Assembly: GCF_000813745.1 (NCBI RefSeq)
Contig: NZ_JWLC01000013.1
Span: forward strand, 1,498-65,497
Length of the DNA stretch: 64,000 bases
Source: Leisingera sp. ANG-M1
GTDB lineage: Bacteria; Pseudomonadota; Alphaproteobacteria; Rhodobacterales; Rhodobacteraceae
Direction of reading: 5' to 3'
Of this stretch, positions 13,080-41,844 are shown in pieces. Position 1 is the first letter of the stretch; every line of letters begins with the position of its first letter. The translations under genes and the position numbers were made by a program. Under the pieces are notes generated by a model. It was given only the letters and a program-made list of their open reading frames with translations. It was not told where the DNA came from and made no database searches.

Positions 13080-13771
13080 TGCAGCGCTCCCCTGATGCCG
13101 TCATGCTGTTTGCTGCGGGTTTTGGCACAAGGATGCGGGAGCTGACCCGCGACAAGCCGAAGCCGATGATCGAAGTCGCCGGCCGGCCGCTGATCACCCA
13201 CGCGCTGGAGCTGGCCAAGGCGATTCAGCCGGCCCGGATCGCGGCGAACCTGCATTACAAGCCTGAGCCGCTGCAAGCTTTGTTAGAGCCTGAAAACGTG
13301 CAGATCAGTCTCGAAAGCCCCGAAATCCTCGACACCGGCGGCGGGCTGCGCCACGCCCTACCCTTGCTGGGAGATGGGCCGGTTTTCACCATGAACACCG
13401 ATGCCATCTGGAAAGGGCCGAACCCGCTGCAACTGGCGCTTGAGGCCTGGGACCCGGACGCCATGGACGCGCTGCTGGTCTGCGTGCCGCTGGACCGTGC
13501 CGTGGGCCGCCCCGGCGGAGGCGATTTCTCGGCAGACGCCGAGGGCCGCATCAGCCGGAGCGGCAACCTGGTCTATGGCGGGGTGCAGATCCTGAAAACA
13601 GACGGGTTGCACCACGTCGAAGAACAAGTGTTCTCGCTGAACGTGCTGTGGAACAAAATGGCTGCGGACAACCGGCTGTTTGCACTGGAATATCCCGGCC
13701 GCTGGTGCGATGTGGGCCACCCCGAAGGGATTACCTTGGCCGAGGAGCTGATCGCCGCAGATGATGTTTGA
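13079..13771 (+). CDS. murU: N-acetylmuramate alpha-1-phosphate uridylyltransferase MurU
   Basis: Makes UDP-N-acetylmuramic acid from MurNAc-1-phosphate and UTP, bypassing MurA and so lowering dependence on the fosfomycin-sensitive step. The 230 residues show the nucleotidyltransferase signature MLFAAGFGTRMREL and DKPKPMIEVAGRPLI near the N-terminus, LDTGGGLRHALPLL and FTMNTDAIWKG in the middle and WCDVGHPEG near the end. It overlaps amgK by one base (TGATG) and addB by 11 bases. A glucose-1-phosphate-type nucleotidyltransferase is the only alternative and is less likely next to amgK. Confidence 0.9.
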   Translation: MQRSPDAVMLFAAGFGTRMRELTRDKPKPMIEVAGRPLITHALELAKAIQPARIAANLHYKPEPLQALLEPENVQISLESPEILDTGGGLRHALPLLGDGPVFTMNTDAIWKGPNPLQLALEAWDPDAMDALLVCVPLDRAVGRPGGGDFSADAEGRISRSGNLVYGGVQILKTDGLHHVEEQVFSLNVLWNKMAADNRLFALEYPGRWCDVGHPEGITLAEELIAADDV

Positions 13772-16694
13772 ACCCACCAGTACCCCGCGCGTCTTTGCCG
13801 TGCCCTGCGGCGTCGATTTCCCGCGGGCGCTGGTTGAAGGCCTGCGCGCCCGTACCCTCGGCCAGCCGCCCGAGGCTCTGGCCCGGGCCGAGCTGATCCT
13901 CAACACCTCCCGCATGGCGCGGCGGGTACGGATACTGTTTGATGACGGCCCTGCCCTTCTGCTGCCGCGGATGCTGATGCTGACGGATCTGGCCCAGCGC
14001 GCCACGCTGGAGGGCCTGCCGCCCGCTCTGCCGCCACTGCGGCGCCGGCTGGAGCTGTCGCAGCTGATCGCCAAGCTGCTGGACGCCCAGCCCGATCTGG
14101 CCTCGCGCGCCTCGCTCTATGATCTGTCTGACAGCCTGGCGGCGTTGATCGACGAAATGCAGGGTGAAGGCGTCAGCACCGATACCATCCGCAATCTTGA
14201 TGTCTCTGACATGTCCGGCCACTGGGCCCGGGCGCAGGCCTTTATCGGCATCGCGGATGAGTTCACCGGCCTGCATGAGGGCGCGATGGACGCCCAGGCG
14301 CGGCAGCGGCAGGTGGTGCTGAACCTGGTTGAACACTGGCAGCACACACCGCCGCAGCATCCGGTGATCCTGGCCGGCTCCACCGGCTCGCGCGGGACCA
14401 CGCTGCTGCTGATGCAGGCCATCGCCCGCCTGCCGCAAGGCGCCGTGGTGCTGCCTGGGTTCGACTTCGACCAGCCGGATCACGTCTGGAACGGCCTGGA
14501 TGACCCCATGATCTCGGAAGATCACCCGCAGTACCGGTTCCACAAGCTGATGAAAGACTTGGGGATTTCGCCGTCGGATGTACTCCCCTGGACTGGTGCA
14601 GCGCAGGTCTCGCCGGAACGGAACAAGCTGGTGTCGCTGGCCCTGCGCCCGGCCCCGGTCACAGATGCCTGGATGAGTGAAGGACCCAAGCTGGAAGGTT
14701 TGGACAGGGCCACAGAAAAAGTAACGCTGGTCGAGGCGCCCAGCCCCCGCTCCGAGGCGCTGGCCATTGCCTTGCGCCTGAGGCAGGCAGCCGAGGACGG
14801 CCAGACTGCTGCGCTGATCACTCCGGACCGAATGCTGACCCGCCAGGTTTCCGCCGCACTGGACCGCTGGGACATCCTGCCCGACGACTCGGCCGGCCAG
14901 CCTTTGCAGCTGTCTCCGCCGGGCCGCTTCCTGCGCCATGTGGCGGGACTGTTCTGCAAGCCGCTCACCTGTGACAGCCTGCTGACGCTGCTGAAACACC
15001 CGCTGACGCACGATGGCACGGACCGCGGCAATCACCTGCGCCAGACCCGCGAGCTGGAACTCTCCTTGCGCCGCAACGGCCCGCCCTTCCCCAATGCCGA
15101 AGCCTTTGCGCAGTTTGAGACGGGCCGGGAGCTGACACCTGGCTGGACAGCATGGCTGTCAGCCAGTTTCGCACATCAGGAGATCACCAGCACCCTGCCC
15201 CTGACGGACTGGGTCGAGCGCCTGCGCGATCTGGCCGAACGCATCGCGGCCGGCAGCCAGGCTGAGGGCTCCGGCACCCTTTGGGACAAGAAAGCCGGCC
15301 AAGCCGCGCTTGCTTGCATTGCAAACCTGGAGGCTGAGGCGCCTTATGGCGGCGAGATGTCCGCCCGTGATTTCGCTGACCTGCTGGGTGCTCTGCTGAG
15401 CCAAGGTGAAGTGCGCGACCGTGATGCGCCCTATGGCTCAATCATGATCTGGGGCACGCTGGAGGCCCGTGTGCAAGGGGCCGACCTGGTGATCCTTGGC
15501 GGCCTCAACGAAGGCAGCTGGCCCGAGGCCGCCTCTCCCGACCCCTGGCTGAACCGCCAACTGCGCAATCAGGCGGGGCTGTTGCTGCCGGAACGCCGCA
15601 TCGGCCTGTCGGCGCATGACTTCCAGCAGGCAATTGCCGCGCCCGAGGTCTGGCTGACACGCGCCGAACGCTCTGAGGAAGCCGATACCGTTCCCTCGCG
15701 CTGGCTGAACCGGCTGACCAACCTGCTGTCCGGCCTGCCGGAGCAAGGCGGCCGGGATGCGCTGGATGTCATGCGGGCCAAGGGCCGCCAATGGCTGGGC
15801 TGGGCCGAAGCGCTGGAAGAACCCACGCCGATCCCGCAAATGCCGCGGCCCTCGCCACGGCCGCCGGTTCCGAGTCGGCCGCGGCGGCTGACGATTACCG
15901 AAATTCCCCGGCTGATCCGCGACCCTTATGCGATTTACGCCAAGCATGTGCTGCGGCTGAAACCGCTCAATTCGCTGGTGCAGGAGCCGGACGCCCTGCT
16001 GCGCGGCATTGTCGTGCATGAAGTGTTTGAGCATTTTATCAAGGAAGCCCAGGCCGATCCTTCGCTGCTGACTGCTGATCACCTCATCACCAAGACCCGC
16101 GAATTGCTGGACACTCATGTGCCCTGGCCGGTTGCCCGCATCCTGTGGCACACGCGCATCCGCAAGATTGCCGGCGACTTTGTGCTGGCGGAACAGGAAC
16201 GCCAGTCCCGCGCCAAGCCGATTGCGTTTGAGGCCAAGGGCAGCGCCCGGCTGGATCCGCTGGATTTCACCATCGCCTGCCGCGCCGACCGGATCGACAT
16301 GGATGAGTGCGGCTTCCTGCATCTTTACGACTACAAGACCGGCGCGCCTCCTTCTGAAGCCCAGCAGAAGAAGTTCGAAAAACAGCTGCTGATCGAGGCT
16401 GCGATGGCTGAAGAAGGCGCCTTTGAGGATCTTGGTGCAGCCGAGGTCGCCCGTGCTCTGTTCATAGGATTGGGCAGCAAGATGAAGGAAGTGCGCGCAC
16501 CCTTAGACGAGCAGCCACCGGCCAAGGTCTGGGACGAATTACGCACCCTGATCGGAGCCTATTTCGAACCTGAACAAGGGTATTCGAGCCGGCGCATGGT
16601 GCACCGGGACGACATCGCCGGCGACTATGACCACCTGGCGCGCTACGGTGAATGGGACCGCAGCGCCACGCCGCAGCCGGAGGATCTGGCATGA
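13761..16694 (+). CDS. addB: Double-strand break repair protein AddB
   Basis: Subunit of the AddAB helicase-nuclease that resects DNA double-strand breaks before RecA loading. At 977 residues it has the alphaproteobacterial AddB length. It lacks a canonical Walker A loop, as expected in this group, and has the helicase-like SQGEVRDRDAPYGSIMIWG and VILGGLNEGSWPEAASPDPW segments around residues 550-600. A C-terminal PD-(D/E)XK nuclease domain ends with the IACRADRIDMDE and LHLYDYKTGAPP motifs near 840-870. A start three bases later (second ATG) is equally possible. It overlaps murU by 11 bases and addA by four, so the subunits are probably made in step. Confidence 0.95.
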   Translation: MMFEPTSTPRVFAVPCGVDFPRALVEGLRARTLGQPPEALARAELILNTSRMARRVRILFDDGPALLLPRMLMLTDLAQRATLEGLPPALPPLRRRLELSQLIAKLLDAQPDLASRASLYDLSDSLAALIDEMQGEGVSTDTIRNLDVSDMSGHWARAQAFIGIADEFTGLHEGAMDAQARQRQVVLNLVEHWQHTPPQHPVILAGSTGSRGTTLLLMQAIARLPQGAVVLPGFDFDQPDHVWNGLDDPMISEDHPQYRFHKLMKDLGISPSDVLPWTGAAQVSPERNKLVSLALRPAPVTDAWMSEGPKLEGLDRATEKVTLVEAPSPRSEALAIALRLRQAAEDGQTAALITPDRMLTRQVSAALDRWDILPDDSAGQPLQLSPPGRFLRHVAGLFCKPLTCDSLLTLLKHPLTHDGTDRGNHLRQTRELELSLRRNGPPFPNAEAFAQFETGRELTPGWTAWLSASFAHQEITSTLPLTDWVERLRDLAERIAAGSQAEGSGTLWDKKAGQAALACIANLEAEAPYGGEMSARDFADLLGALLSQGEVRDRDAPYGSIMIWGTLEARVQGADLVILGGLNEGSWPEAASPDPWLNRQLRNQAGLLLPERRIGLSAHDFQQAIAAPEVWLTRAERSEEADTVPSRWLNRLTNLLSGLPEQGGRDALDVMRAKGRQWLGWAEALEEPTPIPQMPRPSPRPPVPSRPRRLTITEIPRLIRDPYAIYAKHVLRLKPLNSLVQEPDALLRGIVVHEVFEHFIKEAQADPSLLTADHLITKTRELLDTHVPWPVARILWHTRIRKIAGDFVLAEQERQSRAKPIAFEAKGSARLDPLDFTIACRADRIDMDECGFLHLYDYKTGAPPSEAQQKKFEKQLLIEAAMAEEGAFEDLGAAEVARALFIGLGSKMKEVRAPLDEQPPAKVWDELRTLIGAYFEPEQGYSSRRMVHRDDIAGDYDHLARYGEWDRSATPQPEDLA

Positions 16695-19600
16695 CCATCC
16701 GCGACGCCGCCTCCGAGGCGCAGTTCCGCGCCGCCCGCCCGGATGCCTCCACCTGGCTGGCGGCAAATGCCGGCTCCGGCAAGACCAAAGTGCTGACCGA
16801 CCGGGTTGCGCGGCTGTTGCTGAAGGGCGTGCAACCGCAGCATATCCTCTGCCTCACCTATACCAAGGCCGCCGCCAGCGAGATGCAGAACCGGCTGTTC
16901 AAGCGGTTGGGCGAATGGGCGATGCTGGGTGATCCGGCGCTGATTGGTGCCCTGACAGAGCTGGGCGAGGTCAACACCGCCGCCGAGGATCTCGCCAAAG
17001 CGCGCACGCTCTTTGCGCGCGCCATCGAGACGCCGGGCGGGCTGAAGATCCAGACCATCCACTCCTTTTGTTCGTCGCTCCTGCGCCGCTTTCCGCTGGA
17101 GGCTGGCGTCAGCCCGCAGTTCTCGGAAATGGACGACCGCGCGGGCCAGTTGCTGCGGGCGGAAATCATGGAGGATTTTGCCCAAGGCGACGAGGCCCCG
17201 CTGGTCGATGCGCTGGCGCGGCATGTCAGCGACAGCGATTTTGAGACCCTGACCGCCGCCATTTGCCAGCGCCGCGCCGATTTTGGCCAGCCGCTGGACC
17301 GGGGCGGCCTGTTGGAGCTGTTCGAACTGCCCGAAGGTTTTGACGAGGCTGCACTGGAGGAACTGGTGTTCCTTGGCGGTGAAGAGGAACTGCTGCAGCG
17401 CACCCGCGAGATGCTGGGGCAGGGCGGTGCGACCGATCAAAAGGCCGCTGCCAAGCTGGCGGGTATCACCGAACCCACACTTGGTGATCTCGGCACGCTG
17501 GAAAGCATCTTCCTGACCGGCGCCAGTACAAAGGAACCGTTCACCGCCAAGGTTGGCAAGTTCCCGACCAAGAAACTGCGTGAGTCCCACCTCTCGCTGA
17601 TGGACCGGTTAGAGCCGCTGATGTTGCGGGTGGAGGATGCCCGTGCCAAGCGGCTCGGCCTCACCGCCGCCCGCAAGAGCCACCATCTGCACCGTTTCGC
17701 CGCCGCCTTTCTGCCGGAGTACGAGCGCCGCAAGCAGTTGCGCGGCTGGCTCGACTTTGATGATCTGATCCTGAAGGCCCGGCAGTTGCTGAACGATCCG
17801 GGCGTGGCGGCCTGGGTTCTGTATCGGCTGGATGGCGGCATCGGCCATATTTTGGTGGACGAGGCGCAGGATACCAGCCCGGTGCAATGGGACGTGATCG
17901 AGAAGCTGGCGCAGGAATTCACTGCCGGCGAGGGCGCGCGGTCGGATGTGGAGCGCACGATCTTTGTGGTCGGCGACAAGAAGCAGTCGATTTATTCCTT
18001 CCAGGGCGCTGACCCGGATGCGTTTGACCGGATGCAACAGGAATTTGGCAAGCGGCTGGCGGAAACCGGGGCAGGGCTGCAGGATGCCTCGCTTGATTTC
18101 TCCTTCCGCTCCTCCGCCGCGATCCTGAAACTGGTTGATTTGGTGTTCAAGGATAGCCCCCGGGCTGGCTTCCGCAAGGAAGCGCTGCACCGAGCCTTCA
18201 AATCCGATCTGCCGGGCCGGGTGGACCTGTGGCCGGTGGTCGAAAAGGTCGAGGATGACGAGGATCCCGACTGGACCAGCCCCGTCGACCGCCCCAGCAG
18301 CCGCCATCACACGGTGATCCTGGCCGAACGGATCGCGCGTTCGATCAAACAGATGATCGAAACCGGTGTGACCATCCCCGAGGACGGTGCGGAGCGCGGC
18401 ACCTTCCGGCGCCGGCCGGTGACAGCCGGCGATTTCCTGATCCTGGTACAGCGGCGCTCGGACTTGTTCTCGGAAATCATCCGCGCCTGCAAAAAGGCTG
18501 AGCTGCCCATCGCCGGTGCTGACCGGTTGAAGGTGGGGGCGGAACTGGCGGTGAAGGACATCGCCGCACTGCTGCGGTTCCTGGCGCTGCCCGAAGACTC
18601 TTTGTCGCTGGCAGAGGCTCTGAAATCGCCGCTGTTCGGCTGGGGGGAACAGGCGCTGTTCGACCTCGCGCACCGGCGGGAGGCGATGTACCTGTGGCCG
18701 GCGCTGCGCGAACGGGCAGGGGAGTTCCCGGAAACCATGGCGGTGCTGAACGACCTGCGCGCCAATGCCGATTTCCTGCGCCCCTTCGACCTGATCGAAC
18801 GCATTCTGACCCGCCACGGCGGCCGCCAGAAACTGCTGGGCCGGCTGGGTCCGGAGGCCGAGGACGGCATCAATGCGCTGCTGTCGCAGGCTCTCGCCTA
18901 TGAGCGGACGGATGTGCCGAGCCTGACCGGGTTTCTGGTCTGGATGCAAACCGATGATCTGGAAATCAAACGCCAGATGAGCGCCGCCGGCGACATGATC
19001 CGGGTGATGTCGGTGCATGGCTCCAAGGGTCTGGAAGCGCCGATCGTGATCCTGCCGGACACCGCGAAACGGCGGCCGCCGACGGATGCAGAGATTATGC
19101 TGGCCGATGGCACACCGGTCTGGAAGGTGCCGAAGGAGCAGATGCCCGCCGCCATGCTGGCGGCCCGCGAAGCAGCGCAGGAGAAGCTGCAAAACGAGCG
19201 GCTGCGACTCTTGTATGTGGCTCTAACCCGGGCGGAGAAGTGGCTGATTGTCGCCGCCGCCGGCGACGCAGGTGAAGCCGGCGACAGCTGGTACCGCATG
19301 GTCGAAGGTGCCATGCGGGAAGGCGGCGCCATGGAGTGCGAGACTGGTGGCGGCACAGGCCTGCGCATGCAGCATGGTGATTGGGACGGTCTGCCGCTGG
19401 AAGTGCCGCCAGTCCTCGAAACTGCTAAGTATTCCCTGCCGGAGGTCTTCACCCGGCCCGCCCGTTCCTATGAAGCACCGACGTCGGCGCTCAGCCCCTC
19501 GGACCTGGGCGGAGCAAAGGCTCTGCCCGGTGATCAGGGCCTGGACGAAGAGGCTGCCAAAGCCCGCGGAAGCCGGCTGCACCTGCTGCTGGAGCATCTG

Positions 19601-20044
19601 CCGGGCCGGCCCGAGGCAGACTGGCCGCTACTGGCGCAGAACCTGCTTCAGGGCAGTGAAGACACTGCAGAACTTCTGGGCGAAGCCTCGGCAGTGCTGA
19701 AAAATCCGGCCCTTTTGCACATCTTCCAGCCGGATGCGCTGGCTGAAGTGCCGGTCACGGCGGAACTGCAGGGCAACCGCCTGCACGGCATCATCGACCG
19801 GCTGATTGTCACACCGGAAAAAGTCCTGGCTGTGGATTTCAAATCCAACGCCACATTGCCTGAAACGCCTGAGCAATGCCCCGAAGGCCTGCTCCGTCAG
19901 ATGGGCGCCTATGCCTATGCGCTGGCACAGATTTACCCGGACCGGATCATTGAGACCGCGCTTCTGTGGACCAGCACAGCAACCCTGATGCCGCTTCCGC
20001 ACGAGCGCATGACAGAGGCGCTGCTGCGGCGGATGGAACCTTGA
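16691..20044 (+). CDS. addA: Double-strand break repair helicase-nuclease AddA
   Basis: UvrD-like helicase with a fused nuclease; works with AddB in recombinational repair. In 1117 residues the superfamily 1 helicase motifs appear in order: Walker A ANAGSGKTKVLTDRV (25-39), LTYTKAAASEMQNR, the Walker B HILVDEAQDTSPVQWD around 390, VVGDKKQSIYSFQGADPD around 425, VMSVHGSKGLEAPIV around 775 and LLYVALTRAEKWL around 845. A C-terminal nuclease domain with GIIDRLIVTPEKVLAVDFKSN is present. The start ATG 16691 overlaps the addB stop (ATGA). Motifs are intact, so the enzyme should be active. Confidence 0.96.
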   Translation: MTIRDAASEAQFRAARPDASTWLAANAGSGKTKVLTDRVARLLLKGVQPQHILCLTYTKAAASEMQNRLFKRLGEWAMLGDPALIGALTELGEVNTAAEDLAKARTLFARAIETPGGLKIQTIHSFCSSLLRRFPLEAGVSPQFSEMDDRAGQLLRAEIMEDFAQGDEAPLVDALARHVSDSDFETLTAAICQRRADFGQPLDRGGLLELFELPEGFDEAALEELVFLGGEEELLQRTREMLGQGGATDQKAAAKLAGITEPTLGDLGTLESIFLTGASTKEPFTAKVGKFPTKKLRESHLSLMDRLEPLMLRVEDARAKRLGLTAARKSHHLHRFAAAFLPEYERRKQLRGWLDFDDLILKARQLLNDPGVAAWVLYRLDGGIGHILVDEAQDTSPVQWDVIEKLAQEFTAGEGARSDVERTIFVVGDKKQSIYSFQGADPDAFDRMQQEFGKRLAETGAGLQDASLDFSFRSSAAILKLVDLVFKDSPRAGFRKEALHRAFKSDLPGRVDLWPVVEKVEDDEDPDWTSPVDRPSSRHHTVILAERIARSIKQMIETGVTIPEDGAERGTFRRRPVTAGDFLILVQRRSDLFSEIIRACKKAELPIAGADRLKVGAELAVKDIAALLRFLALPEDSLSLAEALKSPLFGWGEQALFDLAHRREAMYLWPALRERAGEFPETMAVLNDLRANADFLRPFDLIERILTRHGGRQKLLGRLGPEAEDGINALLSQALAYERTDVPSLTGFLVWMQTDDLEIKRQMSAAGDMIRVMSVHGSKGLEAPIVILPDTAKRRPPTDAEIMLADGTPVWKVPKEQMPAAMLAAREAAQEKLQNERLRLLYVALTRAEKWLIVAAAGDAGEAGDSWYRMVEGAMREGGAMECETGGGTGLRMQHGDWDGLPLEVPPVLETAKYSLPEVFTRPARSYEAPTSALSPSDLGGAKALPGDQGLDEEAAKARGSRLHLLLEHLPGRPEADWPLLAQNLLQGSEDTAELLGEASAVLKNPALLHIFQPDALAEVPVTAELQGNRLHGIIDRLIVTPEKVLAVDFKSNATLPETPEQCPEGLLRQMGAYAYALAQIYPDRIIETALLWTSTATLMPLPHERMTEALLRRMEP

Positions 20045-32564: not shown

Positions 32565-33394
32565 CTGAGCGCCGCCGCGCGGGTGGCTGCATCCACGTCG
32601 GGGCGGTGGCCGAACCAGCGCTCGAAACCCGGAACCGCCTGATGCAGCAGCATGCCGAGCCCATCGACCACCGTGCAGCCGGCCTCCTCGGCTGTTTGCA
32701 GCAGGTCGGTTTTCAGCGGCGCATAGATCAGATCTGTCACCACGGCATTGCGCTGCAGCCCGTCCAGCGGCACCCGCAGGCGCGGCTTGCCGACCATGCC
32801 CAGCGAGGTGGTGTTCACGATCAGCGCACCTTCTTCAATAATATTGCCGGCCTGGACCCAATCAGACACTTTCACCTGGCTGCCAAAATCGCTCTGCAGC
32901 TGCTCGGCGCGGTCGCGGGTGCGGTTGGTCAGCAGGATCTCGGGCACGCCGGCCTCCAGCAGCGAGGCCACCACCGCGCGGCAGGCGCCGCCGGCGCCCA
33001 GCACCACGGCCGGCCCGGACTGCGGTTCCCACAGCGGCGCGCCCTGATGCAGGTTGGTAATAAAACCATAGCCGTCTGTGTTGTCGGCCATGATGGTGCC
33101 GTCCTTGCGGAAGATCAGCGTATTGGCCGCACCAATCAGCTTGGCCCGGTCGGTGACCTTGTCAGCAATCTCCATCACCGCTTCCTTGTGCGGGATGGTC
33201 ACGTTGGCGCCGACAAACCCCATCTTCGGCATCATCCGGATAGTGTCCGCCAGATCTTCGGGCTCCACATGCATCGGCACATAATGGCCGGCGATCCCAT
33301 GGGTGTTCAGCCAGTGACGGTGCAGCTGCGGAGATTTGGAATGTGCAACCGGACAGCCGATAACGCCGGCGAGCGGGATTTTTGCTTCTGTCAT
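32561..33394 (-). CDS. aroE: Shikimate dehydrogenase
   Basis: NADPH-dependent reduction of 3-dehydroshikimate in aromatic amino acid synthesis. 277 residues with the substrate site GCPVAHSKSPQLHRHW (13-28), NVTIPHKEAVM carrying the catalytic lysine (about residue 70), DNTDGYGF with the catalytic Asp (about 106), and the NADP loop VLGAGGACRAVVASLL (about 130). QAVPGFERWFG closes the C-terminus. Overlaps maf and coaE by four bases each. Confidence 0.96.
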   Translation of the reverse strand: MTEAKIPLAGVIGCPVAHSKSPQLHRHWLNTHGIAGHYVPMHVEPEDLADTIRMMPKMGFVGANVTIPHKEAVMEIADKVTDRAKLIGAANTLIFRKDGTIMADNTDGYGFITNLHQGAPLWEPQSGPAVVLGAGGACRAVVASLLEAGVPEILLTNRTRDRAEQLQSDFGSQVKVSDWVQAGNIIEEGALIVNTTSLGMVGKPRLRVPLDGLQRNAVVTDLIYAPLKTDLLQTAEEAGCTVVDGLGMLLHQAVPGFERWFGHRPDVDAATRAAALR

Positions 33395-33990
33395 TGCTCG
33401 ATTACCCCTTGCAGGCCTAAGTAACTGATAAGCTCCATCAGCGGCAATCCCAAGACATTAAAGTAGCTTCCGTCAATGGAGGCAAAGAGGCGCACGCCTT
33501 CCTCCTCCAGTTTATAAGCTCCCACCGCGTGGCGGATGCTGTCCCAGTTGCGGGACACATAGTCCTGCAGATAAGCATCCGAGCATTTCCGCATCACCAG
33601 CCGGACCTGCCCCACATGGCGCCAGATCGGTTCGCCATCGCGGTAGATCACCGCGGCCGACAGCAGCATATGCCGCTTGCCGCACATTTCCTTGAGCTGC
33701 GCCAGCGCAACCTCTTCGCTGGTTGGCTTGGAAAGTAGTTTCCCTTCGAAATCAAGCACCTGATCACAGCCTAGCACCAGTTTGCCCGGATGTTTGCCGC
33801 TGATCTTGCGTGCCTTGGCCTCAGCCAGCGCATCGGCGATGTCGCGCGGCGGCGCCTGTTCAGCCAGCAGCGCGGCCTTGATCGCCTCTTCATCCAGCCG
33901 CGGCACGTCGGTTTCAAATTCTATGCATGCCTGGCGCAGAAGATGCGCCCGGATTTCGGAACCGGAAGCCAGCACTATGTGGGCAGTCAT
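33391..33990 (-). CDS. maf: Maf family nucleoside triphosphate pyrophosphatase
   Basis: Hydrolyses non-canonical or selected nucleoside triphosphates, a house-cleaning enzyme also linked to septum formation. 199 residues with the Maf opening IVLASGSEIRAHLLRQA, an acidic RLDEEAIKAALL loop, KLVLGCDQVLDFEGKLLSKP with the conserved aspartate, and the C-terminal GSYFNVLGLPLMELISYLG. The motif at the start is SGSEIR rather than the textbook SxSPRR, so it belongs to the subgroup with a diverged phosphate loop. It is the first gene of maf-aroE-coaE-dnaQ and its ATG sits at the edge of the origin candidate. Confidence 0.93.
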   Translation of the reverse strand: MTAHIVLASGSEIRAHLLRQACIEFETDVPRLDEEAIKAALLAEQAPPRDIADALAEAKARKISGKHPGKLVLGCDQVLDFEGKLLSKPTSEEVALAQLKEMCGKRHMLLSAAVIYRDGEPIWRHVGQVRLVMRKCSDAYLQDYVSRNWDSIRHAVGAYKLEEEGVRLFASIDGSYFNVLGLPLMELISYLGLQGVIEQ

Positions 33991-34200
33991 GTGGAAAACC
34001 CCGTGGGAAAGACGCAGATTGTTTCAGGACGTTTTGTATGGTTTTCCACGCTCAAGTAAAGACTACAGGGGTTGACGCAAATCTCAGGATTCAGCCGGCT
34101 GAGTCGTCCTTTGTGAGTCAGGATAACTTTGAATCCGTGGATATGCCGGCTCTCCCCGGATCATCCCTGCCTTATCCCCAAGTACGGATAGGTAAACACA

Positions 34201-34234
34201 TTCTTAACGCACCTTATTTCTAAGGCGTTAAGAA
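34201..34234. repeat. Inverted repeat within the origin candidate
   Basis: TTCTTAACGC (34201-34210) and GCGTTAAGAA (34225-34234) are perfect complements, and inside them CCTTA/TAAGG (34212-34216, 34221-34225) pair again. The TTAAC arms recall CtrA half-sites but the spacing is not the canonical seven bases. Confidence 0.6.
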
Positions 34235-34347
34235 AATTTCCACGACTCCGGTCCCATCCAAGCTGGAATCTTATCCCTGCTGGGGATAAGCGGAGGAGGA
34301 CTCACTTATCCACCGGAATCCACGCACACTACAAAAACATCATCCTT

Positions 34348-34369
34348 CTAATAATCATTTAATTATTAG
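34348..34369. repeat. AT-only inverted repeat at the hemJ-side edge of the origin candidate
   Basis: CTAATAAT (34348-34355) and ATTATTAG (34362-34369) with a six-base spacer, in the most AT-rich part of the interval. Could be part of the unwinding element or the hemJ promoter region. Confidence 0.5.
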
Positions 34370-34399
34370 AGAGATCAGATCAGTTCGGGAGAACAGCCC

Positions 34400-34855
34400 A
34401 TGGACCTGAGCGATGTCATGTTCACGCTCTACCCATATGCCAAATCGCTGCACATCATGGCTGTCCTCAGCTGGATGGCAGGTCTCTTCTATCTCCCCCG
34501 TCTGTTTGTGTATCACGTGGAGCAGGCTGAGAATGTGCAGGAAGCAGTGCCGATCTTCCTTCAAATGGAAGAGAAGCTCCTCAGGATCATCATGCGCCCG
34601 GCAATGTATGTCTCCTGGGCTGCAGGGCTGTTCATCGTTCTAACGCCTGGAATCGTCGACTGGAGCTACATCTGGCCCTGGACCAAGGGCGTTTCAGTGA
34701 TTGCCATGACCTGGTTCCACCATTGGCTGCTGTTCCGCTACCGCGATTTCAAAGAAGGCAGGAATACTCTCACCGGCCGGCAGTTCCGGATGATGAATGA
34801 GGTCCCCACCGTGCTGATGCTGATGATTGTGGTTTCGGTCACCTTCAAATTCTGA
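34400..34855 (+). CDS. hemJ: Protoporphyrinogen IX oxidase HemJ
   Basis: Membrane enzyme that oxidises protoporphyrinogen IX to protoporphyrin IX in haem and chlorophyll synthesis, used where HemG and HemY are absent. 151 residues with four transmembrane helices and the conserved haem-ligand segment YAKSLHIMAVLSWMAGLFYL (His in SLHIM), then FVYHVE, LRIIMRPAMYVSWAAG and WFHHWLLFRYRDF. A GGGAG ribosome-binding site precedes ATG 34400. In several Rhodobacterales hemE or hemH lies near here; neither is present between the origin candidate and rho. Confidence 0.94.
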   Translation: MDLSDVMFTLYPYAKSLHIMAVLSWMAGLFYLPRLFVYHVEQAENVQEAVPIFLQMEEKLLRIIMRPAMYVSWAAGLFIVLTPGIVDWSYIWPWTKGVSVIAMTWFHHWLLFRYRDFKEGRNTLTGRQFRMMNEVPTVLMLMIVVSVTFKF

Positions 34856-37624: not shown

Positions 37625-39508
37625 GTGTTTCACGTGAAACATTCAGCATACGATGTCATCGTAGTAGGCGGCGGGCACGCCGGCACCGAAGCCGCCCATG
37701 CCGCAGCGCGCATGGGTGTACGGACCGCTCTGGTCACGCTGGACCGCAGCGGGATTGGCGTTATGTCCTGCAATCCTGCAATCGGCGGCCTGGGCAAGGG
37801 GCATCTGGTTCGGGAAATTGACGCACTGGACGGGGTGATGGGCCGGGTGGCCGACTTGGCAGGTATCCAATTCCGTTTGCTCAACCGGCGTAAAGGGCCG
37901 GCAGTTCAAGGGCCAAGAGCGCAGTCGGACCGTTCAATTTACCGGGCTGAAATGCTGAAGCTGACAGAAGCTCAGAGCAATCTCGATATCGTCGAAGGCG
38001 AAGTCACTGACTTTGTGATGGATGGGAAAACCGTCGCCGGCGTGGTCCTTGCCGATGGCAGCGAGATCTCCAGCCGCGCAGTGATTCTGACCTCCGGCAC
38101 CTTCCTGCGCGGCGTCATTCACATCGGTGATGTTTCCAGGCCGGGCGGGCGTATGGGCGACAAGCCCTCCGACCGGTTGGCAGAACGCCTCGACAGCTTT
38201 GACCTTCCTTTGGGCAGGTTGAAGACCGGGACACCGCCGAGGCTTGACGGGCGGACGATCAACTGGAGTATCCTGGATGAGCAGCCTGGTGATAAAGATC
38301 CGGTCTTCTTCTCCTTCCTGACGAAGAAACTGAACGCAAAGCAGGTTTCTTGCGGGATCACCCACACCAATTCAAAGACACATGACATTATCCGGAAGAA
38401 TCTGGACCGCTCTGCCATGTATGGAGGGCACATAGAGGGGGTGGGGCCGCGGTACTGTCCGTCAATCGAGGATAAGATTGTCCGTTTCGCCGATAAGGAC
38501 TCTCATCAGATCTTTTTGGAACCAGAGGGCGTTTCCGACCACACCGTGTATCCCAATGGAATTTCGACGAGCCTTCCGCTGGATGTACAGGAGGATTATG
38601 TCCGCTCGATCAAAGGACTGGAGAATGCAGAAATCCTGCAGCCGGGCTATGCGATTGAATATGACTACGTCGATCCGCGCGCGCTCTCACTGGATCTGGC
38701 CCTGAAAGAGGTTCCCGGACTGTACCTTGCAGGGCAGATCAACGGCACCACGGGCTACGAAGAAGCTGCTGCCCAGGGGCTTGTTGCTGGCCTGAACGCT
38801 GCTCTGCGCTGCAAGGGCAGGGAACCTGCCGTATTTGGCCGCTCCAACAGCTACATCGGGGTGATGATAGATGACCTCACCACCAACGGGGTGAGTGAGC
38901 CCTACCGGATGTTCACATCGCGAGCGGAGTTCCGGCTGTCTTTGCGTGCGGATAATGCCGACCAGAGATTGACACCAATGGCGATCGAGCTCGGATGTGT
39001 CGGGGCGGAGCGGCAAGCGGCATTCCAGGACAAGAGCGAACGCCTTGAGGCAGCGCGTTCAACCCTGGAGGCAGCCAGCTTTACGCCCAAGCAGGTTCTG
39101 GAGGCCGGTATTCGCGTCAACCAGGATGGCAATAAGCGCTCCGGGCTGGACGTCTTGGCGTTTCCGGATGTGACTTTTGAGGACATGCTTCCGTTGCTGC
39201 CGGAACTTTCCGTAGCCGAAAGTGACATCCGCAGGCAAGTCGAACGGGATGCATTGTATGCCAATTACATTGCCCGGCAGGAGCGGGAGATATCCGCGAT
39301 GAAGCGGGACGAGGGTTATGTCATTCCTGCCGGCTTTGTATATGACGGGATTGAGGGCCTTTCTAAGGAACTGCAGCAGAAACTTGCTCGCGCTCAGCCG
39401 GAAACTCTGGCACAGGCGGCTCGGATTGACGGTATAACCCCGGCTGCCTTGGCTCTTCTGCTCGCTCGGCTTCGGAAGGAGCAGGGCCGCCAGGGGAAAT
39501 CCGCATGA
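37625..39508 (+). CDS. mnmG: tRNA uridine-5-carboxymethylaminomethyl modification enzyme MnmG (GidA)
   Basis: FAD-dependent partner of MnmE in wobble-uridine modification. 627 residues starting from GTG 37625 ([10 protein letters not shown]). Motifs: the dinucleotide loop [21 protein letters not shown] (about 11-31), [58 protein letters not shown], and [15 protein letters not shown]. An upstream AGGAG supports the GTG start. The first codons coincide with a perfect parS site (37626-37641), and downstream rsmG overlaps by four bases. Confidence 0.97.
37626..37641. promoter_or_regulatory. parS: parS centromere site 1 (ParB-binding)
   Basis: TGTTTCACGTGAAACA, a perfect 16-base palindrome identical to the universal parS consensus. 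It overlaps the GTG start and first codons of mnmG, 3.3 kb left of parB. Confidence 0.95.
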
Positions 39509-40122
39509 ACCAGAAAGAAATTCTCGCATCCCTGGATGTTTCACGTGAAACAATGCAGCGGCTGGAAATCTTTGAGCAAGTGATCCGGAAGTGGAATCCG
39601 AAGATCAATCTGGTTTCCAAAAACAGCCTGGATCACCTTTGGACGCGGCATATAGCTGACTCCGTTCAAGTGTTCAGGTGCGGCGAAAGGGGCAGCCTCT
39701 GGACAGATATCGGTTCTGGTGGCGGGTTCCCCGGTGTGATTGTAGCCATCCTGGCTGCTGACGAAGAGCCGGACATGAAAGTAACGCTGATCGAAAGCGA
39801 TCAGAGGAAATCTGCATTCCTGCGGTCCGCTGCCAGAGAATGCGGCGTCAGTCTCACCGTTATTTCAAAGAGAATCGAACAAGCTGACCCTCAGAACGCG
39901 GATATTCTATCCGCCCGGGCGCTGGCAGACCTGTCTCTCCTTCTTGAATTCTCGGAACGCCACTTGGCAGCCGGCGGTACCGCGCTGTTTCCAAAGGGAG
40001 TTACTTGGAAAAAAGAAGTGGATAACGCGCGGCAGCAATGGCGCTTTGATGCGGAACCGGTTAGAAGTCTGACAGAACCAGAAGCAGTAATCCTGAAAAT
40101 TAGGGGAGTGGCACGTGTCTGA
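39505..40122 (+). CDS. rsmG: 16S rRNA (guanine527-N7)-methyltransferase RsmG (GidB)
   Basis: SAM-dependent methylation of G527 in 16S rRNA; loss gives low-level streptomycin resistance in several bacteria. 205 residues with [20 protein letters not shown] at the start, [21 protein letters not shown], the SAM loop [17 protein letters not shown] (around 70-86) and [14 protein letters not shown]-type segment (here [16 protein letters not shown]). It overlaps mnmG by four bases and parA by eight. A second parS site lies within its codons 11-16. Confidence 0.95.
39537..39552. promoter_or_regulatory. parS: parS centromere site 2 (ParB-binding)
   Basis: TGTTTCACGTGAAACA again, perfect and identical to site 1, 1,911 bases downstream, inside rsmG (coding VSRET). 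Two exact copies so close to parAB leave little doubt about function. Confidence 0.95.
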
Positions 40123-40924
40123 TTGTTCCCGGCCTGAGGGGCCTCGTATTATCGCGGTGGCAAATCAAAAAGGCGGGGTAGGGAAGACAACGACAGCCAT
40201 AAATCTCGCAGCGGCGCTGGTTGAGTGCGGGTTGCGGGTGCTGGTTGTGGACCTGGATCCGCAGGGGAATGCTTCTACCGGGCTTGGGATAGAGCCGTCG
40301 GACAGGGATCTGACGACCTATGACCTGCTTGTCGAAGACGCGTCGCTGACAGACGTGATCCGGCAGACGGAAATCGAAGATCTTTGCATCATTCCGGCTA
40401 CTGTTGATCTCAGCTCAGCGGATATAGAACTGTTTACCAATGAGAAGCGCAGCTTTCTCTTGCACGATGCGCTGCGGCAAACGGCGATGGATGAATACGA
40501 TTGGGACTATGTGCTGATTGACTGCCCGCCTTCCTTGAACCTTCTGACAGTCAACGCCATGGTGGCGTCGCATTCTGTGCTGGTGCCGCTGCAAAGCGAA
40601 TTCTTTGCGCTGGAAGGTGTTACTCAGTTGATGCTGACGATCCGCGAAGTACGGCAGTCGGCCAATCCTGCGCTGCGGATCGAGGGAATCGTCCTTACTA
40701 TGTTCGACCGGCGTAATAACCTGTCGCAGCAGGTTGAGCAGGATGCCCGCGACAATCTGGGTGAGCTCGTGTTTCAAACCAAAATCCCGCGCAACGTTCG
40801 GGTCAGCGAGGCACCGTCGTATGCCCAGCCGGTTCTGAACTATGATACAAACTCGCAGGGAGCACAGGCCTATCGCGCCCTGGCGGAAGAAATCCTCAAT
40901 AAACATCACAAGATTGCGGCGTAA
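40115..40924 (+). CDS. parA: Chromosome partitioning ATPase ParA
   Basis: Walker-type ATPase that segregates the ParB-parS complex at the origin. 269 residues starting at GTG 40115, with the deviant Walker [22 protein letters not shown] (residues 15-35), [29 protein letters not shown] and [18 protein letters not shown]. The MinD/ParA signature lysine (KGGVGKTT) is present. Overlaps rsmG by eight bases; parB follows after 26 bases. Gene order parA-parB next to parS confirms a chromosomal ParABS system. Confidence 0.97.
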
Positions 40925-40950
40925 ATGCAGAAGACGTACCGGAGGCAACC

Positions 40951-41844
40951 ATGGCAGAAAAAAAAGCAAAACCGCGCGGGCTCGGCCGGGGGCTGTCGGC
41001 GTTGATGGCAGATGTGAACCCTGCGCCGGTGAGCACGCAGGCTGAGGCACCGCGGAATGCGGAAATTCTGGTGCCGATTGAAAACGTCGTTGCCAACCCG
41101 AACCAGCCGCGCCGGCAGTTTCTGCAGGAGGATCTGGATGACCTGACCGCCTCCATCAAGGAAAAGGGTGTTTTGCAGCCGCTGATCGTGCGGCCGCGCC
41201 CTGGCGGACAATATGAAATTGTCGCCGGCGAACGCCGCTGGCGTGCCTCGCAGGCGGCGCAGCTGCATGAAGTGCCGGTGCTGATCCGGGACTACTCCGA
41301 TCTCGAGATGATGGAAGTTGCCATCATCGAGAACATTCAGCGCTCTGACCTCAACGCGATGGAAGAGGCGCAGAGCTATAAGCAGCTGATGGAGAAGTTC
41401 GGCCATACCCAGGAAAAGATGGCAGAGGCGCTTGGCAAAAGCCGCAGCCATATTGCCAATCTGGTGCGGCTGCTGCATTTGCCCGAGGACGTGCAGATCC
41501 TGGTGCAGGAGCGGAAGCTGTCTGCCGGCCACGCACGGGCTTTGATTACGTCGGATCATGCGTCCGATCTGGCTAAGAAGATTGTGAAAGGTGGTCTATC
41601 CGTCCGCGCGACTGAGGCTTTGGTGAAGAAAGATGCTGCCGGCTATCAAACCGCTGCGGCAAAGAAACCGAAGAAAGCGGTTGAAAAGGACGCAGACACT
41701 CGCGCCTTGGAAGGTGATCTGTCAGCGATGCTGAAGATGAAGGTCTCCATAGATCACAAGTCGGGCGGGGAAAGCGGCTCGGTGACGATCAGCTATGAGG
41801 ATCTGGATCAGCTGGATGAGCTGTGCAATCTGCTTAGCCGCTAG
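40951..41844 (+). CDS. parB: Chromosome partitioning protein ParB
   Basis: parS-binding CTPase that spreads on DNA and loads SMC. 297 residues with the N-terminal ParA-binding basic segment [18 protein letters not shown], the boxes [15 protein letters not shown] and [36 protein letters not shown], the helix-turn-helix [20 protein letters not shown], and a C-terminal dimerisation domain after a Lys-rich linker (about 230-245). GGAGG precedes ATG 40951. Its 3' end overlaps the convergent DUF454 gene by 11 bases. Confidence 0.97.

Follow-up and report, generated by a model that had tools for sequence, protein, structure and literature searches.

The question raised by this locus is whether replication of the chromosome starts in a gene-free gap of 409 bases (33991-34399) that separates the divergent genes maf (minus strand) and hemJ (plus strand). 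The window, that is, the whole 64-kb stretch of DNA analyzed here, corresponds to C5:1498-65497 in an assembly of 91 contigs and 5.37 Mb, and contig C5 ends 1.5 kb to the left of it. The top matches of the window HemJ are from Leisingera (97% to Leisingera sp. ANG-Vp, then 92-95%). The gap had been proposed as oriC in a first-pass annotation, and this proposal is supported by the GC skew of a relative, the nearby parS sites, the conserved elements and length of the gap, and the gene order; given in addition the density of DnaA boxes and the least stable 30-mer of the window, we predict, with a probability of about 95%, that the gap is the chromosomal oriC of this Leisingera-type Rhodobacteraceae bacterium. 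The bounds of the gap were placed correctly by that annotation, to the base, and the gap and its two flanking genes are as follows.

33991-34399, no strand: candidate oriC, the maf-hemJ intergenic gap, with a box cluster, conservation of the gap, and a skew minimum beside the homologous gap of genome G075
33391-33990, minus strand: maf, left flank; TIGR00172 and PF02545, both above cut-offs
34400-34855, plus strand: hemJ, right flank; PF03653, 180 bits against a cut-off of 34.2

Against TIGR00701 the same HemJ protein scores 112 bits, under the cut-off of 138. To the left of maf lie aroE, coaE, and dnaQ; to the right of hemJ lie rho, mnmE, mnmG, rsmG, parA, and parB. The GC content of the gap is 0.47 versus 0.62 for the window, and an Rfam scan of the window returned zero families above threshold.

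All five TTATCC cores that had been claimed for the gap were recovered, at 34121-34126 (minus), 34172-34177 (plus), 34271-34276 (plus), 34284-34289 (minus), and 34306-34311 (plus). Two degenerate boxes, b1 and b3, were absent from the earlier list, which brings the number of candidate box places to seven.

33990-33998, minus strand: DnaA box b1, degenerate, TTTTCCACA, 1 mismatch; abuts the maf start codon
34118-34126, minus strand: DnaA box b2, TTATCCTGA, exact TTATCC core
34136-34144, minus strand: DnaA box b3, degenerate, ATATCCACG, 2 mismatches
34172-34180, plus strand: DnaA box b4, TTATCCCCA, exact TTATCC core
34271-34279, plus strand: DnaA box b5, TTATCCCTG, exact TTATCC core
34281-34289, minus strand: DnaA box b6, TTATCCCCA, exact TTATCC core
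34306-34314, plus strand: DnaA box b7, TTATCCACC, exact core; points 5' to 3' at the AT-rich element

A further 9-mer with 2 mismatches lies at 34042-34050 (plus); no perfect TTATCCACA 9-mer is present in the gap, its best 9-mers having 1 mismatch. The clustering of the cores is far above background. A 480-kb sample of the same genome has TTATCC at 0.181 per kb on both strands, that is, 0.074 expected per 409 bases against the five observed (Poisson P for at least five of about 2e-8), and any other 200 bases of this sample or of the window contain at most two cores. None of 5000 dinucleotide shuffles of the gap contained five or more, and the window as a whole shows just a mild excess (18 cores versus a shuffle mean of 11). 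Thus the intergenic cluster of DnaA boxes that is expected of an oriC is found here, with seven box places, five of which coincide with conservation peaks.

These peaks come from a comparison with relatives, for which 109 loci were fetched from 29 of the 98 Rhodobacteraceae genomes with a HemJ match and from the best 80 of 195 contig-database matches, a sampling that skews the set toward close relatives. In 108 of the 109, maf stands opposite hemJ across the gap; the exception, L077, is a contig end that starts 602 bases before hemJ. Taken with the window, the 109 maf-hemJ gaps measure 341-450 bases (median 401), and removal of six duplicates left 103 distinct gaps for alignment. Conservation peaks at b1, b2, b4, b6, and b7, at ACAAAANCATCATCCTT (34331-34347), in the AT-rich stretch, and at GTTTTGTATG (34031-34040); b3 and b5 have no peak. 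When a core is counted if it falls within four columns of the window's box, 80 of the 103 gaps have exact TTATCC at b2 and 64 have it at b4. With up to one mismatch allowed, the core is found at b7 in 96 gaps (27 exact; commonest forms T[TA]ATCCAC), at b1 in 88 (14 exact), at b3 in 82 (27 exact), and at b6 in 72 (33 exact); b5 is the weakest kept of the seven (46, with 20 exact). Exact TTATCC is missing altogether from 5 of the 109 gaps. The peak at 34031-34040 stands apart from all DnaA boxes, and we offer no explanation for it; TTTGTATG is found exactly in 60 of the 109 gaps.

One end of the gap had been described as AT-rich and the gap as containing inverted repeats. Both descriptions hold: nearest-neighbor energies calculated across the 64-kb window place its least stable 30-mer at 34346-34375, and inverted repeats are present.

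34331-34347, plus strand: conserved block ACAAAAACATCATCCTT, between b7 and the AT-rich element; 1.3-1.4 bits per column
34346-34375, no strand: candidate DNA unwinding element, AT-rich, with inverted repeat I2; the least stable 30-mer in 64 kb

By sequence stability, 34346-34375 is thus the candidate for the AT-rich unwinding element of an oriC, and the column information of the preceding block is among the highest in the gap. The strict form of the block (17 fixed bases, 1 mismatch) was found in 12 of 120 Rhodobacteraceae genomes, in 8 of these 12 directly upstream of a hemJ, the window's own copy not counted. In the class it was found in 8 of 289 genomes with the window's own included, which is about the chance level by our own estimate, and its use as a class-wide marker was rejected. 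Genomes G070 and G076 have the 17-base block although neither gave a HemJ match, which suggests that the origin may stay in place where hemJ is gone.

Starting from 34339, seven consecutive triplets have T in the middle position, or A on the opposite strand, and in this resemble DnaA-trios, the strand convention for such a reading being in part general background. A run of at least three such triplets occurs in 73% of the 103 gaps; these belong to one inherited block and hence are not independent tests. As in the basal unwinding system (BUS) of B. subtilis, a box faces the AT-rich element and a run of middle-A triplets precedes that element on the opposite strand. However, the published search rule asks for at least three DnaA-trios no more than 16 bases from a DnaA box that has 2 mismatches or fewer (PMC8287927), whereas a spacer of 24 bases separates b7 and the run, and the BUS assignment was therefore rejected.

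The window itself shows a GC skew that is about zero or weakly positive on the left and strongly positive on the right, with a local dip at 34-35 kb; the minimum of the window's cumulative skew is not at the gap, and the dip follows a positive stretch from 16 to 31 kb. By itself the window's own skew would not settle the place of the origin. Two large genes at 13761-20044 (plus), with PD-(D/E)XK nuclease and UvrD helicase domains and presumably AddB/AddA-like, point at the origin, and part of the weak skew on its left may be due to them.

The first-pass annotation had named a skew minimum elsewhere as what would count against the gap, and this was examined in G075, which has the nearest HemJ (77% identity) among 120 Rhodobacteraceae genomes searched and presumably has its whole chromosome in a 3.65-Mb contig that begins at dnaA (coordinate 16). 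In 35 stretches of 20 kb, about 19% of the contig, the skew is positive from 1 to about 1.64 Mb, negative from 1.73 to about 3.51 Mb with a single exception (+0.016 at 2.18 Mb), and then positive again. The cumulative minimum, located in 120 contiguous kb, falls in the 2.5-kb bin 3520501-3523000, which adjoins the homologous maf-hemJ gap at about 3523243-3523647, a position derived from that of hemJ and the gap length; the reverse switch, at about 1.64-1.73 Mb, is about half a chromosome away from the gap. Thus a skew minimum at the locus was found in the relative, and a local dip in the window itself. Twenty stretches each were sampled in G003, where the skew is noisy and roughly consistent, and in G093, where it was uninformative as a further test. 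A search of G075 with the DnaA model also returned 15 equal-scoring partial matches (E 1.8e-10, 247-aa frames), which we take to be probably copies of an IstB-type transposon ATPase.

The partition genes and their sites, which are expected close to an oriC, are found on the right of the gap.

37626-37641 (C5:39123-39138), no strand: parS 1, perfect 16-base palindrome, inside mnmG
39537-39552 (C5:41034-41049), no strand: parS 2, perfect, inside rsmG
40115-41844, plus strand: parA and parB; Pfam AAA_31 (ParA-type) and ParB_N, HTH_ParB, ParB_C

These two sites, 3.2 and 5.1 kb from the gap, are the only ones in the 5.37-Mb genome that match, with up to 1 mismatch, what we take to be the 16-base parS consensus.

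The experimentally mapped Caulobacter origin is described as lying between hemE and COG1806 (PMC1914354). According to the same description, Cori of C. crescentus resembles our gap in its length (404 versus 409 bp), its DnaA boxes, and its AT-rich element, but contains five CtrA sites, whereas the gap has a single loose match and no strict site (TTAA-N7-TTAA). Of the 109 maf-hemJ gaps, 17 contain strict CtrA sites; those of the window and of Leisingera do not. A single match to the loose IHF consensus of PMC1914354 lies at 34353, within the AT-rich element, and a stricter pattern gave none. Cori is flanked by both hemE and COG1806, the gap by neither, and the two were likened through the published description and gene order. 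A search for COG1806 (PF03618) gave no match in the window's genome or in 7 of 10 further genomes.

The order of the genes was established for nine genomes. It is maf-COG1806, gap, hemE-hemJ-rho in G004, G054, and G101; maf, gap, hemE-hemJ-rho in G093 and G017; and maf, gap, hemJ-rho, the same as in the window, in G003, G055, and G045. The outer genes of the relatives with hemE/COG1806 flanks are those of the window, dnaQ-coaE-aroE-maf on one side and hemJ-rho-mnmE-mnmG on the other. In the ninth genome hemE-hemJ-rho is present (G083:C55:75000-88000, L264) with no maf, aroE, coaE, or dnaQ beside it in the 13 kb read, and the flank opposite hemE seems rearranged. Judging by this series, the gap of the window is probably homologous to the place of Cori; the simplest reading, and one that we infer, is that COG1806 left first, then hemE, and that the origin stayed put.

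The elements within the gaps weaken this link. Five hemE-type gaps, of about 380-460 bases between match edges, contain 0 (G004), 2 (G054), 4 (G101), 0 (G093), and 1 (G017) TTATCC cores and no CATCATC block, versus 4, 3, and 4 cores in the hemJ-type gaps of G003, G055, and G045, two of which have the block (it is absent from G045). Boxes common to both types were sought and proved weak. The link to Caulobacter thus comes from gene order and not from common elements.

The first-pass annotation had also singled out the missing hemE. The gene is indeed not at the gap, lying in this genome on a separate contig (C56), but there is nothing unusual in that for Rhodobacteraceae. Among 98 hemJ-bearing genomes of the family, 91 were used for the count (the window's own and six with weak matches being excluded), and 89 of the 91 had a hemE listed. 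It adjoins hemJ in 6 of them, shares the contig at a distance of at least 74 kb in 16, and is on another contig in 67, in some of which a contig break between hemE and hemJ is possible.

Several other explanations of these observations were weighed. The origin could lie close to dnaA, which is some 197 kb right of the gap, in which case the gap would be a DnaA-titrating or regulatory cluster. Indeed, dnaA shares contig C5 with the gap, the sampled skew is about zero or negative at C5:180-230 kb and positive past dnaA, and three TTATCC cores, above background, are found within about 600 bases upstream of the gene (L001 454, 552, and 1057; dnaA from 1501). However, in the sampled stretches of G075 dnaA has positive skew to either side and no switch, parS and parAB sit at the gap instead, and boxes upstream of dnaA are expected from its autoregulation; the cores at L001 454-1062 are possibly such autoregulatory boxes. 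We consider a dnaA origin very unlikely, although these three cores, together with the weakness of the boxes shared by hemE-type and hemJ-type gaps, slightly lower our confidence in the oriC reading of the gap.

Still less probable is an origin that moved away together with hemE, here to C56. The Caulobacter origin does adjoin hemE by the published description (PMC1914354), but in the sampled stretches no sign change of the skew was found around hemE in either G075 (502 kb) or C56, and the order around the gap is retained apart from hemE and COG1806. We give as little credence to the reading of the gap as nothing more than a long promoter region in which DnaA acts as a transcription regulator. 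It is true that maf and hemJ diverge from the gap and that DnaA boxes can act in gene regulation; on the other hand, a simple consensus scan returned no sigma-70-like promoter (a weak argument, as shuffles give 0.8), the length of about 400 bases is steady in the 109 maf-hemJ gaps as well as in the five hemE-type ones, and the skew minimum of G075 lies beside the gap.

Under the preferred oriC reading, the gap could work as follows. DnaA would bind some seven boxes (b2 and b4 are kept best; the others are weaker) and would oligomerize toward b7, which faces the AT-rich element. The duplex would then open over the conserved CATCATCCTT/AT-rich stretch, two replisomes would load there, and segregation of the new origins would fall to ParB bound at both parS sites, 3-5 kb right of the gap. 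DnaA binding, the place of unwinding, and use in the cell are what we infer from sequence.

The least ordinary point about this gap is the dense array of GANTC beside the DnaA boxes in Leisingera.

34088-34320, no strand: eight GANTC (CcrM) sites, starting at 34088, 34101, 34115, 34131, 34244, 34266, 34299, and 34316

Three of them, at 34115, 34266, and 34299, are at boxes b2, b5, and b7, which they overlap, adjoin, or come within 2 bases of. The expected number is 0.50 from the genome sample and 2.37 from shuffles of the gap, of which 4 in 5000 had at least eight. Such density is not unique to the origin, and this claim was rejected: eight sites also fall within 409 bases or less at one place outside the origin in the 480-kb sample, in L014 (G000:C2:1-20000). 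The number of sites varies from 0 to 12 among the 109 gaps, with none in 23; the window and the nine gaps closest to it (L053-L060, L065) have 5-9, L073 has 12, and L076 has 10. In an alignment of nine Leisingera-type sequences (the window, L053-L058, L060, and L065), the sites at 34101, 34115, and 34299 are kept in all nine, although the middle base at 34299 takes three forms; eight sequences keep 34088, 34266, and 34316, seven keep 34244, and five keep 34131. The sites align within Leisingera, and partly beyond. A CcrM-like methylase of 367 aa is encoded in the genome (PDB 6pbd CcrMI, E 5e-167; Pfam N6_N4_Mtase and RAMA).

GANTC sites were already known in Caulobacter origins by the account in PMC3973325, so that the array of the gap is a variation on a known feature, with a putative function. 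It is a tentative and rather doubtful suggestion that, in Leisingera and a few allied genera, CcrM methylation gates initiation, the eight GANTC sites, three of them at or near DnaA boxes, remaining hemimethylated once initiation has occurred and lowering the affinity of DnaA. The proposed gating, in a gap that has no strict CtrA site, would be a counterpart of the GATC-based sequestration of E. coli. A possible role of CcrM at origins could be approached through this natural variation in site number between gaps.

Leisingera origins may be listed in DoriC. In the main texts of the open-access literature we found no paper on a maf-hemJ gap or a loss of hemE when searching for hemE with oriC in Rhodobacterales or Rhodobacteraceae. 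Origins of 101 Rhodobacteraceae chromosomes were predicted by Ori-Finder with criteria akin to ours, namely a GC disparity minimum, DnaA boxes (TTATCCACA, TGTGGATAT, and another), and proximity of parAB; the main text of that paper mentions neither hemE nor maf nor Leisingera (PMC6699656). As described in the respective texts, R. sphaeroides origins were imaged and located by cumulative skew (PMC6315104), and Ori-Finder origins were used with parAB named as the anchor (PMC8116508).

The gap is very probably the place at which replication of the main chromosome of this marine bacterium begins, an ordinary alphaproteobacterial start site from which the usual neighbor genes have moved away. The origin of a Leisingera-type chromosome is thereby narrowed to 409 bases. 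The hemE landmark fails in most of the sampled Rhodobacteraceae genomes and the remaining neighborhood stays; maf-hemJ with parS looks like a better origin landmark for the family. Finally, among the matches, L059, titled Nocardioides marinus, and L126, titled Flavobacteriia bacterium, have hemJ-maf loci of the Rhodobacteraceae type (HemJ 83% and 61%), L126 being identical in coordinates and match to the Roseobacter MAG L127; by their sequence, the titles of both records look wrong.
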